This document shows, one piece after another, positions 33,683-62,802 of a DNA stretch of 64,000 nt. The translations under genes were made by a program, and so were the position numbers. Position 1 is the stretch's first letter, and each line of letters opens with the position of its first letter. This stretch comes from Armatimonadota bacterium. GTDB taxonomy: Bacteria; Armatimonadota; UBA5829; DTJY01. Where the stretch lies: NCBI GenBank assembly GCA_023511795.1, contig JAIMAU010000002.1, forward strand, positions 62,001-126,000, given 5' to 3'. The notes below the pieces were generated by a model. It made no database searches. It was not told the origin of the DNA and saw only the letters and a list, made by a program, of their open reading frames with translations.

Positions 33683-35812
33683 ATGGAGCGAGCAGGCAGG
33701 TCCGCAGCCGGCCCGAAAAAGGAGACTTCTCGCCCCGATCCCAGCTTGGACACAGACGTCCGCTATGCTAAGGGAGTGGGAGAGCGCCTGGCGAAGGTTT
33801 TTAGCAAGCTAGGCATTTTTACGGTTCGAGATCTCCTGACGCATTTCCCCCGCCGCTATGAGGATCGGCGGCATATGCGCCGGATTGCGCAGCTTAAGCC
33901 TGGAGAAACGGCAACGGTCGCTGGAAGAGTGGTTGTTGCTGACAACCTGCGGACTCCTCGAAGCCAGATGCTTTTGACAAAAGTAGCGATCCAGGATGAC
34001 TCCGGAATCGCATACTTAGTTTGGTTCAATCAATGGTATCTGAAAAATAAGTTTGTAAAGCTCCTTGGAAAAAAAATAGTTGTATATGGAACTGCGCAGC
34101 CTGGAATTCACGGCATAGAGATAATAAATCCTGAGTGGGAAGAGGTCGATGAGGGCGTTGACCCTCTCTCATCCAACCGAATAGTGCCAGTCTATCCACT
34201 GACGGAAGGGTTGTATCAGGGTACCGTTAGGAGAATAATCTACCAGGCGTTAGAAAGGTTTTTGCCGAGCGTTCATGACATCCTACCCGAGGAGATTCGC
34301 GAGCGCCGCAGTCTGGTTGGTTTGTCAGAGGCTCTGCTAAACATTCATTTTCCGGAAAGCGAGACGGTGCTCGGGAAGGCGCGATTTAGGTTGGTATATG
34401 AGGAATTCTTTCTGCTTCAGCTTGCATTGGCGCTGAGGAGGCAGAGTTTCACAGCAGGTGAGCCGGGAATCGCATTCCGAGTGACACCTGAGTGTACAAA
34501 GGCGCTCTATGATGTTTTGCCGTTTGAGCTAACTAACGCGCAGAAACGCGTTATTGCCGAGATTGAGCGAGACATGGCAAGTCCAAGGGCGATGAACCGC
34601 CTCCTGCAAGGCGATGTCGGGTCGGGGAAGACGATAGTCGCTGTTGCCGCAATTATGATAGCCGTCCATAACGGCTACCAAGCGGCGCTGATGGCGCCGA
34701 CGGAAATTTTGGCCGAACAGCACTACCTCGTACTGAGGCGGATGCTTGAAGCACTTGGCTTGGATGTTGTTTTGCTGACAGGCAGCCTTCCAGCGAAGGA
34801 AAAGCGCTTGGCTAAGGAAAAAACGGCGTCTGGATTGGCGAATATCGTGATTGGAACGCATGCGCTGATACAGGAAGACGTCGAGTTTGCAAAGCTTGGG
34901 CTGGTGATTGTTGATGAACAGCACCGGTTTGGCGTTCTTCAAAGAGCCGCTCTAAGGCAAAAAGGTTGGAATCCAGACGTGCTGGTAATGACAGCCACGC
35001 CGATTCCGCGGACCTTGGCATTGACGGTGTATGGTGACCTTGATCTTTCGGTTATTGACGAGATGCCGCCGGGGCGGAAACCTATAAAGACTCACTTTAA
35101 GCCAACGAGTGAGCGGCCTAGGGTATATGAAGCTATTAGAAAGCTTGTTGATCAGGGGCGGCAAGTATATATAGTCTGTCCGCTCATAGAGGAATCCGAA
35201 AAACTTCAGGCGAAAGCTGCCACGGAGCTGGCTGAGCACTTGGCTAACGATGTGTTTCCAAACTATAGGCTTGGGCTGCTCCATGGACAGATGAAACCCG
35301 CAGAGAAGGATGAGGTCATGAGCCGTTTTCGGAACGGCGAAATTCAGATTCTCGTCTCGACTACGGTAATTGAGGTCGGTGTAGATGTTCCAAATGCCTG
35401 CGTAATGGTTATAGAAGATGCTGAAAGGTTCGGCATGGCGCAGCTTCACCAATTGAGGGGACGTGTTGGCAGGGGCGAACATCAATCTTTCTGTGTGTTG
35501 ATTGGAGACCCAACGACCGAAGAGGCTAGGCGGCGACTGGAAGTAATTTCAGCTACCAACAATGGATTCCAGATTGCAGAGGAAGACCTGAAAATCAGAG
35601 GGCCAGGAGAGTTTTATGGTACGCGGCAGAGCGGCCTGCCGTCGCTCCGAATTGCGGATGTACTGCAGGATGTTGATATTCTTGAGATGAGCCGCCAGGA
35701 TGCGTTCGAGCTTGTGAAGCGCGATTCCAATCTGACTGCGCCTGAGCACCAGGGACTGAAGCAGGAAGTAATGAGGAGATTTGAGGGCTACGAATTGGTC
35801 TCGGTGAGTTGA
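33683..35812 (+). CDS. recG: ATP-dependent DNA helicase RecG
   Basis: RecG remodels stalled replication forks and branched recombination intermediates. The 709-residue protein has an N-terminal helix-hairpin-like segment (VRYAKGVGERLAKVFSKLGI), the wedge/OB domain (about 60-190) and two RecA-like domains. Walker A is GDVGSGKT, Walker B is VDEQHRFG, motif III is MTATPIPRTLALT, and motif VI is HQLRGRVGRGEHQSFC. The TRG motif region with GPGEFYGTRQSGLPSLRIAD is present near the C-terminus. GAGG precedes the ATG. Full length; recG-coaD order is common. Confidence 0.97.
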   Translation: MERAGRSAAGPKKETSRPDPSLDTDVRYAKGVGERLAKVFSKLGIFTVRDLLTHFPRRYEDRRHMRRIAQLKPGETATVAGRVVVADNLRTPRSQMLLTKVAIQDDSGIAYLVWFNQWYLKNKFVKLLGKKIVVYGTAQPGIHGIEIINPEWEEVDEGVDPLSSNRIVPVYPLTEGLYQGTVRRIIYQALERFLPSVHDILPEEIRERRSLVGLSEALLNIHFPESETVLGKARFRLVYEEFFLLQLALALRRQSFTAGEPGIAFRVTPECTKALYDVLPFELTNAQKRVIAEIERDMASPRAMNRLLQGDVGSGKTIVAVAAIMIAVHNGYQAALMAPTEILAEQHYLVLRRMLEALGLDVVLLTGSLPAKEKRLAKEKTASGLANIVIGTHALIQEDVEFAKLGLVIVDEQHRFGVLQRAALRQKGWNPDVLVMTATPIPRTLALTVYGDLDLSVIDEMPPGRKPIKTHFKPTSERPRVYEAIRKLVDQGRQVYIVCPLIEESEKLQAKAATELAEHLANDVFPNYRLGLLHGQMKPAEKDEVMSRFRNGEIQILVSTTVIEVGVDVPNACVMVIEDAERFGMAQLHQLRGRVGRGEHQSFCVLIGDPTTEEARRRLEVISATNNGFQIAEEDLKIRGPGEFYGTRQSGLPSLRIADVLQDVDILEMSRQDAFELVKRDSNLTAPEHQGLKQEVMRRFEGYELVSVS

Positions 35813-57037: not shown

Positions 57038-57052
57038 TTGGTGTAAAGAAAA

Positions 57053-57085
57053 GCCCCGGTCGGTTAAGAAACGCCCGGCCGGGGC
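57053..57085 (+). terminator. GC-rich hairpin after cysE
   Basis: GCCCCGGTCGG (57053-57063) and CCGGCCGGGGC (57075-57085) form an 11-bp stem with one G-U pair. No U-tract follows, so it is an intrinsic-like or processing structure. A 12-bp palindrome GGGTATATACCC follows at 57109-57120. Confidence 0.6.
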
Positions 57086-57262
57086 GATGGAAGGAGGTCG
57101 GATTGCTAGGGTATATACCCATGGAACGCTGGTACTATACAAAAACCCCCTTGTGTTCGCTTCAATTTTTTGACGCTTAAGTTTAGTTAAAAGTTCCAAA
57201 CAGCTATACTTTTTAGCTGAATATTTGTCAAGAGTATGCCTTTGGCGAATAGCTCTTCCTTG

Positions 57263-57279
57263 TTGGCATAAATCTTGCA
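57263..57279 (+). promoter_or_regulatory. Sigma-54 promoter of the 1030-residue secreted protein
   Basis: TGGCATAAATCTTGCA (57264-57279) has the -24 GG (57265-57266) and -12 GC (57277-57278) exactly ten bases apart and matches the TGGCAY-R-N4-TTGCW consensus. The start site should be near 57290, just before GGAGGTG and ATG 57305. Sigma-54 promoters need an enhancer-binding activator, not in this window. Confidence 0.85.
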
Positions 57280-57304
57280 CGCTCAATTCTTGGAGGTGCC
57301 CCAC

Positions 57305-60300
57305 ATGTTTATAAGACGTCACCACAGCCGTTTGATATTCTTGCTTGCTGTCTTCTTTGTGCTCTTTGTTTCTAACTTAGCAAAAGCCGAATGCCTCATA
57401 TTTTCGGACAGCTTCGATGATGGCGATTGGACTCACAATCCAAAGTGGGAATTCTCAATCGAAGGTCCGATTACGGTGAGCAATGAACGCTCGGTGTCGC
57501 CTCCTTATAGCTTAAATGTTTCAACGAACAACCAGCCGGGAGCGATATATGCGTATTCTTGCCTTACTTCAGCTACCCAAAGTTTTTCGTGCACATTTAA
57601 CTTGTACATAGAATCTATGGGCGATGAAGCGATTCCATGGTGTCTTCGATCAACCAGCGGTGGTGTCGCGGCAATCATTTTCATACTGCCAGGCGGAACA
57701 GTTCAGCTATTTGTCTTGGATTCCACCAGCGGTTGGAGTGGGAAAGCTTCAAATGTTCCGTTCCCTCTTACTTATGGAGCTTGGCATTCATTTCGAATTA
57801 CATATGATGGCTCAATAACCAATTTGTATCTCGATGGCCATACAGAGCCAGATGCTAGCGTGGCGCAAACATATGTGTACGTGCCGTCACGAGTAAGCAT
57901 TGGAAACATCAGCCTGCCGCACACGAGCACCTTTTATGTCGATGACTTGGCGTTTTACACCTCCACTCAATATGAACCCGGCCGAGTCTACGTACAGATA
58001 TGCTCCGATACCTCAACCGGCGGAATAAATGTGAGTAACCACTATAATAATTTCCCTGCGGACGATTATACATATACTTCTCCGGAAGGCCAGGGGGCGC
58101 AGGTTATGGCTGAGTCATATAGAGAAGGTTTGCGAGACAGCCTTGGCAATCCAATTAAGTTCACATGGTATATGAATTTGGGTTCTTTGTATTCTTGTGG
58201 TGTGAGCACCGGACCACTTTTACCTCTTGACCTTATGGTAGACAACCATGGCGACTCGATTGAGCGGTGGGGTGATGAGTTAGCATATCATTATCATACG
58301 TGGATATGGAGTGATCCGGATGGGGATTCGGTGTACCATTGGAATCAAGCGCCTGACTTTACATATTGCGTAGATGACTTTGAGACAACTGTTGCTCACA
58401 TGATTCTTGATCGAATGTTCTATCCTTCGTCATTTAGGAGCGGCTGGCATGGCATGGATAACTTTTTCCAGTCATATCTTGATGACTGGTTTCCATATCG
58501 TTTTGAGAATGCATGGCCAGCTTATCGCGAGGATCCGACAGAGCCTGTTGACAATGTTTACGACTGGAGGCGTGCTCCTTCTGAATGGGTGCCTTATCAT
58601 CCCGATGCAAATGACTATCAGGTGCCCGGCAATCTGCGTGGTTGGGAATCACGCTGTGCGTATATGAACAGCATTACAGCGTCCGAGGTGGAAAATATTT
58701 TTCTAAAAGCACTTGCCGGTACCTCTCAGATTGTCACAGCATTTTCGCATCTAAAGGAGGCAGATTTTCCTGCGCAAGTGGTAAACCTGCATGCTCGTCT
58801 TACCGATGCAGCTGATAAAATTCCATGCGTTAAATTTGAATATCTTACGGGTCGCGAATGCATGATGAAATGGCGAAACGGGACGGATGTGACGCCGCCA
58901 ACAATCCAATATTCAGTCTCTGATTCGGGGGGTGTTCGGACTGTAACTTTTAGTACCGATGAAGAGATATATCAGGTTCAGCCATTTGTCGCACGAAAAG
59001 GCAGTGACGGGACGTACGCCCGGATGGATAGCGTGCCGGTTGGAATAAACCAGTGGCGCATTCAATATAATCTTTTGGATACTGTGGCAATTGCAGTTGG
59101 GGTTACGGATTGGTTTGGCAATCCGCGCGTTCGGTTTTTCCCTGTTCCCTTGAGGATTGGAGATACGCGTGTTAGCACAACTACCAATTCGGCAGAGGTA
59201 ACCTGGACGACAAATAACCCAGCAGACTCAAAGGTTGAGTACCAGCTTGCTTCGTCTGGAGGTACGACGAGTGTTTACTCGAGTAAGAAGGTTCTGAAGC
59301 ATCGCGTGGTTTTGACGGGTCTCATGCCTGGGAGTGTCTATAAAATAAGCATTTCATCGGAAGATGAGTTTGGTGAGCTGGTCGAGGTTAAGGATATCTA
59401 TGTCCTAACAAAGCTATCTGGTGCTGTTGTGATAGACAACGTTGACGCAGGCTTTTCCACAGTTGGGAGCTGGTCCACAGGCTCAACTGCTCCTGGGAAA
59501 TATGGCTCTGACTATTGTTATGCGATGACTAGTCCCACTGGTACCTCAAGCGCATACTGGACATGGCAGGTGGCAGAAACTGGCATTTACAGAATCTGCG
59601 CCTGGTGGTCAGAGGGAACAAACCGTTCCACAACTGCGAGGTACTCGGTCATCTATGGTGGAACTGAGGAAGAAAAGATAGTTAATCAGCAAACTGATGG
59701 AGGGAAATGGAATTCCTTAGGAATATATTATCTGGAAGCAGGGAACACAGTTCAGGTTAAGTTATCAAATAAAGCGCCGTCAGGATACGTAGTGATTGCA
59801 GATGCAGTAAAGTTTGAACAGGCGTATACATCTATATCGAACATCGGACTGGCACGACGTTTGGAAGACGGAAATAGTATTCGAATCTCAAACGTTGCGG
59901 TCACTGCCGTGTTTGATTCGGCGTTTTACATTGAAGAGATTGGGCGTTCGGCTGGTTTGAAAGTAGAAGGCTCTGGCGTCAGCGTCGGCGATATAGTGCA
60001 GGTATCTGGCGAACTTGCAACGATTGGTGGCGAGCGCACGATAATTAATCCGCTAGTGGAAAAGATGGAAGGGAGTGCTTTTCTTAAACCACTTGCAATT
60101 ACAGCCAGAGATATAAACCTTGGTGCTTGCGAGGGTGTGACGACCGCAGGACTGCTGGTTACAGTTTGGGGTAAGGTGAGTTCCGTTGGCGTTGATTACT
60201 TCTATGTGGACGATGGCTCATCCCTAGAGGATGGTAGCTCAAACGTCGGGCTTAGGATTGATGCCTCTATCTTGTCATCCCCGCCTCAAATTAGCGATTT

Positions 60301-60397
60301 TGCAATGGTCACGGGTGTGGTCGGAGCACAAGATCTCGATGTCGGGACGGTTCCTATAATCCGCCCGCGCAGTAGTGGTGAAATAATTTTTTACTAA
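57305..60397 (+). CDS. Large secreted multidomain protein (LamG-like, deacetylase-like barrel, Fn3, golvesin-like, OB-fold)
   Basis: The 1030-residue protein has a signal peptide (1-28). Visible regions are: a LamG/concanavalin-like beta sandwich (31-216, FSDSFDDGDWTHNP to VDDLAFY); a deacetylase-like barrel (about 225-525) with HYHTWIWSD and FRSGWHGMDN; a beta domain (about 530-615); an Fn3-like domain (617-705, NSAEVTWTTNNPADSKVEYQ); a golvesin-type domain (706-842); and an OB-fold-like region (843-1030). It is probably an exported carbohydrate-active or matrix protein. ATG 57305 behind GGAGGTG is preferred over ATG 57275, which lies before the predicted sigma-54 start site. Catalytic residues of the barrel are not certain. 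Confidence 0.85.
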   Translation: MFIRRHHSRLIFLLAVFFVLFVSNLAKAECLIFSDSFDDGDWTHNPKWEFSIEGPITVSNERSVSPPYSLNVSTNNQPGAIYAYSCLTSATQSFSCTFNLYIESMGDEAIPWCLRSTSGGVAAIIFILPGGTVQLFVLDSTSGWSGKASNVPFPLTYGAWHSFRITYDGSITNLYLDGHTEPDASVAQTYVYVPSRVSIGNISLPHTSTFYVDDLAFYTSTQYEPGRVYVQICSDTSTGGINVSNHYNNFPADDYTYTSPEGQGAQVMAESYREGLRDSLGNPIKFTWYMNLGSLYSCGVSTGPLLPLDLMVDNHGDSIERWGDELAYHYHTWIWSDPDGDSVYHWNQAPDFTYCVDDFETTVAHMILDRMFYPSSFRSGWHGMDNFFQSYLDDWFPYRFENAWPAYREDPTEPVDNVYDWRRAPSEWVPYHPDANDYQVPGNLRGWESRCAYMNSITASEVENIFLKALAGTSQIVTAFSHLKEADFPAQVVNLHARLTDAADKIPCVKFEYLTGRECMMKWRNGTDVTPPTIQYSVSDSGGVRTVTFSTDEEIYQVQPFVARKGSDGTYARMDSVPVGINQWRIQYNLLDTVAIAVGVTDWFGNPRVRFFPVPLRIGDTRVSTTTNSAEVTWTTNNPADSKVEYQLASSGGTTSVYSSKKVLKHRVVLTGLMPGSVYKISISSEDEFGELVEVKDIYVLTKLSGAVVIDNVDAGFSTVGSWSTGSTAPGKYGSDYCYAMTSPTGTSSAYWTWQVAETGIYRICAWWSEGTNRSTTARYSVIYGGTEEEKIVNQQTDGGKWNSLGIYYLEAGNTVQVKLSNKAPSGYVVIADAVKFEQAYTSISNIGLARRLEDGNSIRISNVAVTAVFDSAFYIEEIGRSAGLKVEGSGVSVGDIVQVSGELATIGGERTIINPLVEKMEGSAFLKPLAITARDINLGACEGVTTAGLLVTVWGKVSSVGVDYFYVDDGSSLEDGSSNVGLRIDASILSSPPQISDFAMVTGVVGAQDLDVGTVPIIRPRSSGEIIFY

Positions 60398-60577
60398 ATA
60401 GTGAATAATTGTTCAATTTTCTTTGCCTATTGGGAACATTTGAACCATCACGGCCGTATAAATAAATGGAAATGCACACATTCGTGATGCAGTTTGCTCC
60501 TTTCCAAATACCTCCTTGCCCAGGCCGGGCCGCCGGTTGTTGAATAGGTCCCGAGCGCCGGCGACTCGGCTAGTTTT

Positions 60578-60606
60578 GAGCCCCGTTTCTTCGGGGCTCT
60601 TTTTTT
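60578..60606 (+). terminator. Rho-independent terminator of the large secreted protein gene
   Basis: GAGCCCCG (60578-60585), loop TTTCTT, CGGGGCTC (60592-60599) followed by seven T. It is 180 bp after the stop codon, so the mRNA has a structured 3' UTR or a small RNA ends here. Confidence 0.92.
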
Positions 60607-60837
60607 ATCAATTTTGGTTCAAACTTTCAGAATCAGGTATTATTAACAGTTATCTACCATATTCCAAGTGGCTAAAATATACGCGGTGTTGCTGAACTTG
60701 AGGCGCTTTGAGAGCTAGGAAAATGAAGTGATCAAATGGATTTTAGCACAAAGTGTGAACACTGTATGAATTGAGGGCAGTTTTTTTCGACATAGATGGA
60801 ACCTTTTTTGGCGATTTGTTGTCAAACTTAAATGGAT

Positions 60838-60986
60838 GTGCCCCTAGCAGAGGGTGCACTACAGAGGGGGCGAGAAGCAGTTCGAATGGCTAGCGCCAAC
60901 GGGGGGTTGGAATCTGCTCTCGCCTCCGAGACACGTAACGTGCTGGAAGCAAGAAAGCCGGCTAAAAGGCCGGCTTTCTTGCTTTT
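60838..60986 (+). ncRNA. Candidate structured noncoding RNA with its own terminator
   Basis: Four consecutive stem-loops fill 149 nt: GTGC-CCCT/AGGG-GCAC (60838-60859, with a bulged T), a long stem GGCGAGA-GCAG/CTGC-TCTCGCC (60866-60927, bulged A) with a CCAAC/GTTGG inner hairpin, CACG/CGTG (60932-60942), and a 14-bp GC-rich terminator stem with TTTT (60949-60986). No gene follows on plus, so it would be a free-standing RNA rather than a riboswitch. I could not match it to 6S, SRP, tmRNA or RNase P motifs. No clear promoter is seen. Confidence 0.5.
60949..60986 (+). terminator. Strong terminator of the RNA candidate
   Basis: GCAAGAAAGCCGGC (60949-60962), loop TAAAAG, GCCGGCTTTCTTGC (60969-60982), then TTTT. 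The 14-bp perfect stem in a gene-free stretch implies a transcript that must end here. Confidence 0.85.
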
Positions 60987-61059
60987 GTCAGGGAGTCTAA
61001 ATTCAAGAGAGAGGCTTTAGAAGCGAGAGCAATCCTTTTGTGAAAATTGGGTGAAATGG

Positions 61060-61099
61060 TATTTAAGGGTGGGACAACTAGTTGTCCCACCCTTAAATA
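61060..61099. repeat. Perfect 40-bp palindrome downstream of serA
   Basis: The 20-bp arms TATTTAAGGGTGGGACAACT and its reverse complement meet with no spacer at the central CTAG. It lies 17 bp beyond the serA stop and probably serves as its transcript end, although the T-tract is poor (TTAAATA). Confidence 0.85.
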
Positions 61100-61116
61100 T
61101 GATTAAGCATTGTCTT

Positions 61117-62706
61117 TTAATTTTGGTTGAACTGCACAAGTTTTGCGGTTTCTATGCCATCTAGCTTTCTAATCTCATCCATTACTAGGTCCGGCACTGG
61201 GTCGTCAACGTTTAGAACCATTACTGCTTCCTTGCCGATGCCTGCTCTGCCAACATGCATACCGGCGATGTTTATGTTGTGGTTACCGAGAAGTGTCCCT
61301 ACTCGGCCAATAACTCCCGGTTTATCTATGTGGGTTGTGACAAGCATTGCTCCGTCGGGAACTACGTCAATCATAAATCCATCAATCTTTACTATTCTGA
61401 AATCTCTTTTTCCGAAGACTGTTCCCTCAATTAGCTTTTCGCCCTTGTCAGTCTTTACCTTGACGGCTAGAAGGCTGGTATAGTCTTCTGGTCCTACACT
61501 TTTGCTTTCTGTAATCCGTATGCCTCTGGATTCGGCAATGACTGGGGCGTTGACTAGGTTCACCGGTTCTGTAAGAATCGGTTGGAGCAGGCCTTTTAGT
61601 ACAGAGCGCCCGACCGGACCGTACTCCATGGTGGAAAGATCGCCGCAGTAAGCAATTTCGATAGACTTGACAGCACCATCCGTAAGTTGTGTTGCCATCA
61701 TACCAATCCGTTCGCCGAGAAGCATGAATGGTTCCACTGCAGCTAGTACTTCGGCGCTCAGAGCTGGCATGTTTACTGCACTGCGAGCAGGCTTGCCATT
61801 AAGGACATCTACAATCTGCTCAGCGACGTCAATTGCGACATTAATCTGAGCTTCCTCGGTTGATGCTCCTAAGTGCGGAGTGGTGATTGCTTTGTCCAGC
61901 TTGAGCAGCGGGTTGTCTGGAGGGGGTGGTTCTGACTCATAAACGTCGAAGGCTATTCCAGCTACCTTACCTTCCTCGACTGCTTTTGCCAGGGCGGCTT
62001 CGTCGACAATTCCTCCTCGGGCAACATTAATGATGCGCACTCCTGGCTTCATTTTTTCAATCTCATCTTTGCCGATTGAGCCCTTTGTATCTTTTGTTGC
62101 TGGTACGTGGATTGTAATATAGTCACTTCTTCTAAGGAGTTCATCCATGCTAACAAGCTCGACGCCTATCTTGCTGGCGTACTCTTCGGAAACGAATGGA
62201 TCGTATGCTATGATGTCCATCTCGAAGCTTTGCGCCCGCTTGGCAACAGCGCTTCCAATCTTTCCAAGCCCATAGATACCCAGCGTTTTTCCATAGAGCT
62301 CATTACCGACGAATTTGCTTCGTTTCCACTCGCCAGCGCGCAATGAGGCATGCCCTTGGGGGATATTCCGTGCGAGAGCTAGCATCATTGCCATCGTAAG
62401 CTCAGCAGCAGCAATAGTGTTCCCGCCGGGTGAATTGACAACAATGATTCCTTTCTCGGTAGCAACAGGGACATCAATGTTGTCTACGCCGACGCCTGCC
62501 CGGCCGATGATTTTCATGTTTTTTGCTGCTTCGAGAACATCGGCTGTGACTTTTGTCTCGCTTCGAACAATCAGAGCATCATAGTCGCCGATAATCTCGA
62601 TTAGCTTGGATTTCTCCAATCCGGTCTTTACATCTACGTCGAAATGCTTCTGGAGAATTTCAATTCCTTCTTTTGCGACAGGATCGCTTACTAAGATCCT
62701 TGGCAT
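61117..62706 (-). CDS. serA: D-3-phosphoglycerate dehydrogenase
   Basis: First step of serine synthesis. The 529-residue long-form enzyme has the substrate domain, a Rossmann domain (YGKTLGIYGLGKIGSAVAKR), NVARGGIVDEAAL, the catalytic His in TTPHLGASTEEAQ, the ASB domain (about 320-450) and a C-terminal ACT domain (VTTHIDKPGVIGRVGTLLGN) for serine feedback. ATG 62706 has GAGGTGG upstream; an in-frame ATG at 62781 is unlikely because it adds 25 residues absent from the family. It has its own promoter at 62803-62832. Confidence 0.96.
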   Translation of the reverse strand: MPRILVSDPVAKEGIEILQKHFDVDVKTGLEKSKLIEIIGDYDALIVRSETKVTADVLEAAKNMKIIGRAGVGVDNIDVPVATEKGIIVVNSPGGNTIAAAELTMAMMLALARNIPQGHASLRAGEWKRSKFVGNELYGKTLGIYGLGKIGSAVAKRAQSFEMDIIAYDPFVSEEYASKIGVELVSMDELLRRSDYITIHVPATKDTKGSIGKDEIEKMKPGVRIINVARGGIVDEAALAKAVEEGKVAGIAFDVYESEPPPPDNPLLKLDKAITTPHLGASTEEAQINVAIDVAEQIVDVLNGKPARSAVNMPALSAEVLAAVEPFMLLGERIGMMATQLTDGAVKSIEIAYCGDLSTMEYGPVGRSVLKGLLQPILTEPVNLVNAPVIAESRGIRITESKSVGPEDYTSLLAVKVKTDKGEKLIEGTVFGKRDFRIVKIDGFMIDVVPDGAMLVTTHIDKPGVIGRVGTLLGNHNINIAGMHVGRAGIGKEAVMVLNVDDPVPDLVMDEIRKLDGIETAKLVQFNQN

Positions 62707-62802
62707 ACCCACCTCGTCCTTCCAGTTCTTGCCATCTACTCCTTTGGCACATATGCCAGGCATGCCTGGAGTAGCCGGCAATTAGTTTACCCGAACAATG
62801 AG

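Follow-up and report, generated by a model that had tools for sequence, protein, structure and literature searches.

A conserved small-RNA gene of Armatimonadota with an ECF-sigma-like promoter, linked to two sister RNA genes and possibly acting as a sponge

We analyzed a 64,000-nt stretch of an Armatimonadota genome (the window; its genome is G000) and, within it, the structured element at positions 60838-60986 on the plus strand, here named RNA2. Judged from genome comparison, RNA2 is a real, conserved RNA gene: its core stem is preserved with covarying pairs in a second genus, its promoter layout is common to two sister RNA genes, and all three belong to a linked unit. It is best described as an independent, stand-alone small-RNA gene with a predicted transcript of ~150 nt, probably driven by an ECF sigma factor. 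More tentatively, RNA2 may act in trans as a sponge for its C-rich neighbors.

Structure and conservation of RNA2

The predicted parts of RNA2, in window coordinates, are as follows.

60832-60986, plus: predicted transcript of ~150 nt, its start placed from the -10 position and its end from the terminator
60838-60859, plus: 5' hairpin; a hairpin of different sequence occupies the equivalent place in G003
60866-60927, plus: core stem with bulged A at 60876 and inner hairpin, supported by fold and covariation
60886-60911, plus: invariant core ATGGCTnnnGCCAACGGGGGGTTGGA, with a possible hairpin CCAAC-GGGGG-GTTGG; proposed pairing site
60946-60985, plus: terminator hairpin of 16-18 bp with a short U tract; G003 has its own long terminator in the same place

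The minimum free energy (MFE) of 60838-60986 is -81 kcal/mol, versus -52.9 ± 4.0 for dinucleotide shuffles (z = -7.1). The terminator hairpin accounts for much of this signal (z = -7.7 by itself). For RNA2 minus the terminator (60838-60945) z is -3.2, a value matched by 0 of 200 shuffles, and for the core stem it is -3.3. Four consecutive stem-loops had been noted in a preliminary description, and these are present, at 60838-60859, 60866-60927, ~60931-60942 and 60946-60985. The third is weak (-3.7 kcal/mol) and lies at chance level, being equaled by 23 of 200 shuffles. The long stem with a single bulged A and an internal hairpin was recovered as well, and in the fold ensemble the G loop stays largely unpaired. 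The terminator, previously given as 14 bp, has in fact a perfect stem of 16 bp, or 18 bp in the MFE structure. Calling it near-ideal was too strong, since the U tract that follows is short (UUUUG, with two U within the stem); for the same reason it is missing from the list produced by a simple terminator scan.

To assess conservation, we compared G000 with G001, from the same genus, G003, from a second genus of the family, and G002, from a third genus. In G001, RNA2 lies in the same place and differs by three substitutions and one deletion in 149 nt, versus 28 differences in 250 nt of flanking DNA (∼11%; Fisher p = 0.002). The low-difference stretch begins near 60797, and 60798-60837 is identical in both genomes. 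G003 matches the 62-nt core (60866-60927; blastn E = 3.7e-5). In an unforced alignment of the three genomes, all 14 of 14 core-stem pairs are kept and none is broken, with four changed on both sides and two on one side; slid-partner controls gave 41-54% paired. The bulged A is retained in G003, and the inner segment AUGGCUnnnGCCAACGGGGGGUUGGA is unchanged across all three genomes. The CCAAC/GUUGG inner hairpin is likewise invariant, so the alignment holds no covariation for or against it. An alignment of orthologs over the 866-927 stem had been suggested as a check on the element, and it came out positive, with conservation and compensatory pair changes in relatives. Because the core in G003 is also preceded by a hairpin, of other sequence, and followed by a long terminator particular to that genome, the architecture of RNA2 is the same in the two genera.

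When a covariance model built on the core was run over 291 phylum genomes, RNA2 was identified in G000, G001 and G003 only. It is absent from G002 and G004, near-complete genomes of the same family, even with lax filters, and it is single-copy apart from its own palindrome. Weaker matches in G120, G181 and G182 (E = 0.02-0.03) were rejected, their contexts being coding-like or unrelated. A 2-mismatch pattern run over the phylum gave no further copy with the G6 run. The matches listed for a loose DNA pattern in GTDB genomes include coding-like and unrelated ones, and all seven matches to an IMG/VR pattern are without the flanking stem. A repeated element, ACATCCGCCGGAGGCTTNGGCCAACANGATGTTGGTCACTCAGGCGTTGCCG, unrelated to RNA2, occurs in several Sporosarcina, Psychrobacillus and Metasolibacillus contigs (L050, L060, L068, L102, L103, L104, L132, L136 and L157).

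RNA2 had been called an unassigned structured RNA, and this description holds: it scores below the gathering threshold for all 4227 families of Rfam 15, the search originally proposed, and it is conserved with compensatory changes in relatives. The window as a whole matches no family at cut-off apart from three tRNAs, a lax search of the RNA2 region gave only sub-threshold, chance-level matches, and the G003 homolog is also without a family match. The view that RNA2 is neither 6S nor SRP RNA proved right. There is no match to 6S RNA (RF00013) at 60838-60986, and the genome's 6S RNA is at C2:143182-143376; the bacterial small SRP RNA (RF00169) is at C1:74713-74813. Both RNAs lie apart from RNA2 in every family genome tested. 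Moreover, the absence of RNA2 from two near-complete genomes of its own family is a misfit for a housekeeping RNA.

The linked unit and its promoters

RNA2 belongs to a four-part unit found in both genera: RNA3 (on the minus strand), a gene for a golvesin-domain protein, RNA1 and RNA2. The features of the locus are listed below.

57045-57165, minus: RNA3, third sRNA gene, with conserved GCAAUCCGACCUCCUUCC; terminator 57085-57045
57172-57197, minus: RNA3 promoter, GGAAC-N17-CGTC, the same in G001 and G003
57275-60397, plus: golvesin-domain/LamG-type protein gene, between RNA3 and RNA1
60432-60458, plus: RNA1 promoter, GGGAAC-N17-CGTA, in identical layout in G001, G002 and G003
60466-60607, plus: RNA1, second sRNA gene, with C-rich UGCUCCUUUCCAAAUACCUCCUUGCCC; stem 60525-60571, terminator 60578-60607
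60798-60823, plus: RNA2 promoter, ECF-sigma-like, GGAAC-N17-TGTC; in G003, GGGAAC-N17-CGTCA at equal distance
61117-62781, minus: serA (phosphoglycerate dehydrogenase), convergent neighbor

The preliminary description placed RNA2 in a gene-free stretch between convergent genes. The convergent arrangement stands, the golvesin-domain gene ending at 60397 on the plus strand and serA at 61117 on the minus strand; the gap is not gene-free, as RNA1 (~60466-60607) lies in it. That description had also overlooked RNA3 and the promoter at 60798-60823, and it had proposed no function. RNA1 and its terminator separate RNA2 from the golvesin-domain gene in both genera, and serA is convergent, which argues that RNA2 stands alone. 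It has its own promoter motif, its own terminator and a reading frame broken in relatives, the sequence features expected of a trans-acting sRNA.

The G003 gene upstream of RNA2 is the ortholog of the golvesin-domain gene (56% identity). The G003 stretches compared contain no other gene with an ortholog in the window. Only one more match was seen, that of the preceding ORF, which matches the C-terminal part of the golvesin protein at 30%. serA is outside the conserved unit, being on another contig in G003, where a 3-keto-disaccharide hydrolase gene lies downstream of RNA2, 250 nt away. In the window, a serine acetyltransferase gene precedes the golvesin-domain gene, with RNA3 between them. The ORF tool starts the golvesin-domain gene at TTG 57275; an ATG at ∼57305 is the likelier start. 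A sigma54-like promoter, TTGGCATAAATCTTGCA, is seen upstream of this gene (∼57264-57280, plus), and its equivalent in G003 is TTGGCACGATTCTTGCA. Between RNA2 and serA, at 61055-61104, lies a 25-bp palindrome with no loop. Its arms differ in G001 and still pair partly (once with G-C for A-T), as if the structure were kept.

RNA1 is better conserved than RNA2, with zero differences between G000 and G001 over 120 nt (60478-60597). Common to it in G003 are UGCUCCUUUCCAA(A)UACCUCCUUGCCCAGGCCGGGC, then a stem, then a strong terminator. Three pairs of the stem are changed on both sides, in a comparison of two sequences only, a level also reached by 62 of 500 shuffles. RNA1 is also present in G002, which lacks RNA2, adjoining a serine acetyltransferase-like gene (by ORF reading; E = 1.5e-9). 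Other matches to the RNA1 model (E = 1e-4 to 0.1) were coding- or repeat-like in those examined. A weak likeness to Rfam SorY (RF02651) lies in RNA1, not RNA2, and comes from its CCUCC segment and terminator; with a score of 27.6 bits where the cut-off is 111, RNA1 is not a member. It was the shared promoter motif that led to RNA3, whose GCAAUCCGACCUCCUUCC and terminator are conserved in G001 and G003, in the same place and on the same strand. Both RNA1 and RNA3 bear C-rich, anti-Shine–Dalgarno-like segments, to which RNA2 bears the G-rich counterpart. The C-rich segment of RNA1 is predicted to be mostly unpaired; the CCUCC segment of RNA3 is predicted to be paired in the window.

ECF sigma promoters are characterized by GGAAC at -35 and CGT at -10. 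The motif GGAAC-N17-(C/T)GT(A/C) heads RNA1, RNA2 and RNA3 in each of G000, G001 and G003. Ungapped alignments place GGGAAC-N17-CGTAT 5' of RNA1 in G000, G001, G003 and G002, and GGAAC-N17-(T/C)GTCA 5' of RNA2 in G000, G001 and G003, each at constant distance. Three genera thus keep motif and spacing for RNA1, and two do so for RNA2 and RNA3. A scan of the window gave four matches versus 1.1 expected, namely those of RNA1, RNA2 and RNA3 (the last on the minus strand, upstream of the golvesin-domain gene) and one at 35331; three of the four fall within ∼1 kb of intergenic DNA. The two corresponding intergenic regions of G003 contain three matches, one per RNA, and none besides. Genome-wide, GGGAAC-N17-CGTA is not enriched over a reversed control, and a single match therefore carries little weight unless it is conserved. 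A sigma70 scan near RNA2 gave one match, at 60667-60639 on the opposite strand, and its total was no higher than in shuffles. We conclude that RNA2 is probably an ECF-driven sRNA, a dependence read from the promoter only. In G002 (C227:33308 onward), an ECF sigma gene (with Sigma70_r2 and r4_2) has the motif GGGAAC-N17-CGTA ∼170 nt upstream and is followed by a zf-HC2 zinc-finger anti-sigma-like gene. This sigma gene is a candidate driver of the regulon.

Pairing partners and alternative explanations

The segments GGGGGGUUGGAU of RNA2 and AUCCGACCUCCU of RNA3 are complementary: in G003 they could form 12 pairs without interruption, and in the window the same duplex with a single bulge. When columns of the RNA3 segment were permuted jointly in both species, equal or better energy was seen in 1.9% of cases (p = 0.019), a result that is suggestive only, because two partners were tried and the sequences are not independent. 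By rank, RNA3 is 12 of ∼2270 30-nt places in the window (34 kb) and 27 of ∼1370 in G003 (∼20.7 kb). For RNA1, column permutation gave p ∼0.2, no better than composition predicts; its plain duplex energy with RNA2 was not significant versus shuffles, it ranks only in the top 2-7%, and cofolding of RNA1 with RNA2 gave no core contact. RNA2 likewise showed no significant pairing with the leader of the golvesin mRNA.

These data can be accommodated in a model in which transcription of RNA2 would start from the ECF-sigma-type promoter GGAAC-N17-YGTC and stop at the hairpin terminator that RNA2 itself carries. RNA2 would then pair in trans through the invariant G-rich core AACGGGGGGUUGGA, which a stable stem displays at its end. 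Its most probable partners would be the C-rich anti-Shine–Dalgarno-like segments of the neighboring sRNAs, RNA3 first and RNA1 second, and RNA2, as a sponge, would limit or end their action on mRNAs. We chose this reading for the RNA3 complementarity and for its likeness to the CrfA and RosA design described below. We hold it with slightly less than even confidence, and the predicted pairing lends the sponge step weak support.

A related possibility is that RNA2 is an ECF-driven trans-acting sRNA whose core pairs with C-rich sites of mRNAs, or with another partner, rather than sponging its neighbors. All the evidence for an RNA gene and its promoter fits this explanation, AUGGCUnnnGCCAAC is strictly conserved besides the G run, and pairing with RNA1 is at chance level. 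Yet complementarity to RNA3 exceeds permutation (p = 0.019), and the G-rich core opposes two C-rich neighbors that share its promoter and a conserved linkage; we consider this reading somewhat less likely than the sponge. The invariance of the inner 26 nt goes beyond the needs of simple pairing and extends to each arm of GGC/GCC and CCAAC/GUUGG, small hairpins that exclude one another. Together with the retained bulged A, this would suit a protein site, with RNA2 titrating or guiding a putative partner protein. RNA2 is, however, without the repeated sites of CsrB- or CrcZ-type decoys, and we consider protein binding unlikely.

Two further explanations treat RNA2 as something other than an independent sRNA. 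Its position downstream of the golvesin-domain gene in both genera, where the other neighbors differ, could mean that it is a 3' UTR element of that gene or a cis-regulator of a neighbor. But RNA1, with its own promoter and terminator, intervenes in both genera; on the downstream side the window has a convergent gene, and G003 has the 3-keto-disaccharide hydrolase gene, 250 nt off; and in a more distant genome the protein gene occurs without the RNA. This explanation is very unlikely. The other takes the locus for a small protein gene, given a 62-aa ORF with an ATG start (60832-61020) that overlaps RNA2, or for an inert inverted-repeat element. In G003, an in-frame TAG directly follows the shared ATGGCT, in G001 a one-base deletion falls within the ORF, the ORF has no Pfam match, and the element is single-copy. 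These observations render a small protein or an inert repeat highly improbable.

Relation to known systems

In Caulobacter crescentus, CrfA sponges SisA-D, which share UUUCCUCCCU, via a G/A-rich stem-loop (PMC12559287). CrfA and SisA-D (alpha-r8 sRNAs) resemble the present case in that a stand-alone sRNA has a G-rich stem-loop opposing a CCUCC-type segment of several sRNAs, and SisA-D, like RNA1 and RNA3, have rho-independent terminators (PMC12559287). CrfA differs in coming from an unrelated phylum, in being induced by carbon starvation and in acting on scattered siblings (PMC12559287), whereas the RNAs described here are linked and have a common ECF-like promoter, and their pairing is predicted from sequence. 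RosA of Bacillus subtilis sponges RoxS and FsrA, both C-rich, by means of its G-rich regions (PMC8216469). Here, too, G-rich regions of one sRNA face C-rich regions of others; RosA, however, has a sigma-A promoter, several G-rich regions in place of the one G-rich core of RNA2, and no linkage to its targets. If the pairing holds, RNA2 would work like CrfA or RosA, and it is a member of neither, the sequences being unrelated.

With respect to transcription, sRNAs made by ECF sigma factors provide a parallel. RybB and MicA of E. coli are under sigmaE. Pos19 of the RpoE regulon in Rhodobacter is reported to be a sigma factor-controlled stress sRNA (PMC5036791). The likeness consists in ECF-sigma transcription, which for RNA2 is deduced from the promoter; these sRNAs have no known sequence relation to RNA2.

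A limited literature search returned no description of a regulatory sRNA in Armatimonadota. RNA2 is of a known kind (an sRNA, possibly a sponge), and its family and the linked three-RNA unit are new within the literature searched. Three linked sRNA genes come into view together at this locus; their promoters, cores and terminators are conserved from one genus to another, a related genome supplies a candidate ECF sigma factor, and the proposed pairing lends itself to testing. Should RNA2 prove to be a sponge, the design of C-rich sRNAs and a G-rich sponge, seen in Alphaproteobacteria and Firmicutes, would have one more, unrelated instance, making three in all, and in this instance alone would the sponge lie together with the sRNAs under the same type of promoter. 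A broader and rather unlikely proposal is a compact stress unit, new to Armatimonadota, in which one ECF sigma factor would drive at least two C-rich sRNAs and a linked G-rich sponge around a sigma54-type extracellular protein gene. In such a unit, activation and a built-in brake would be made together.

Elsewhere in these genomes, at G000:C11:13166 and G003:C9:105847 (minus), we observed candidate sRNAs that have GGGAAC-N17-CGTA, a CUCCUUU segment and a terminator.
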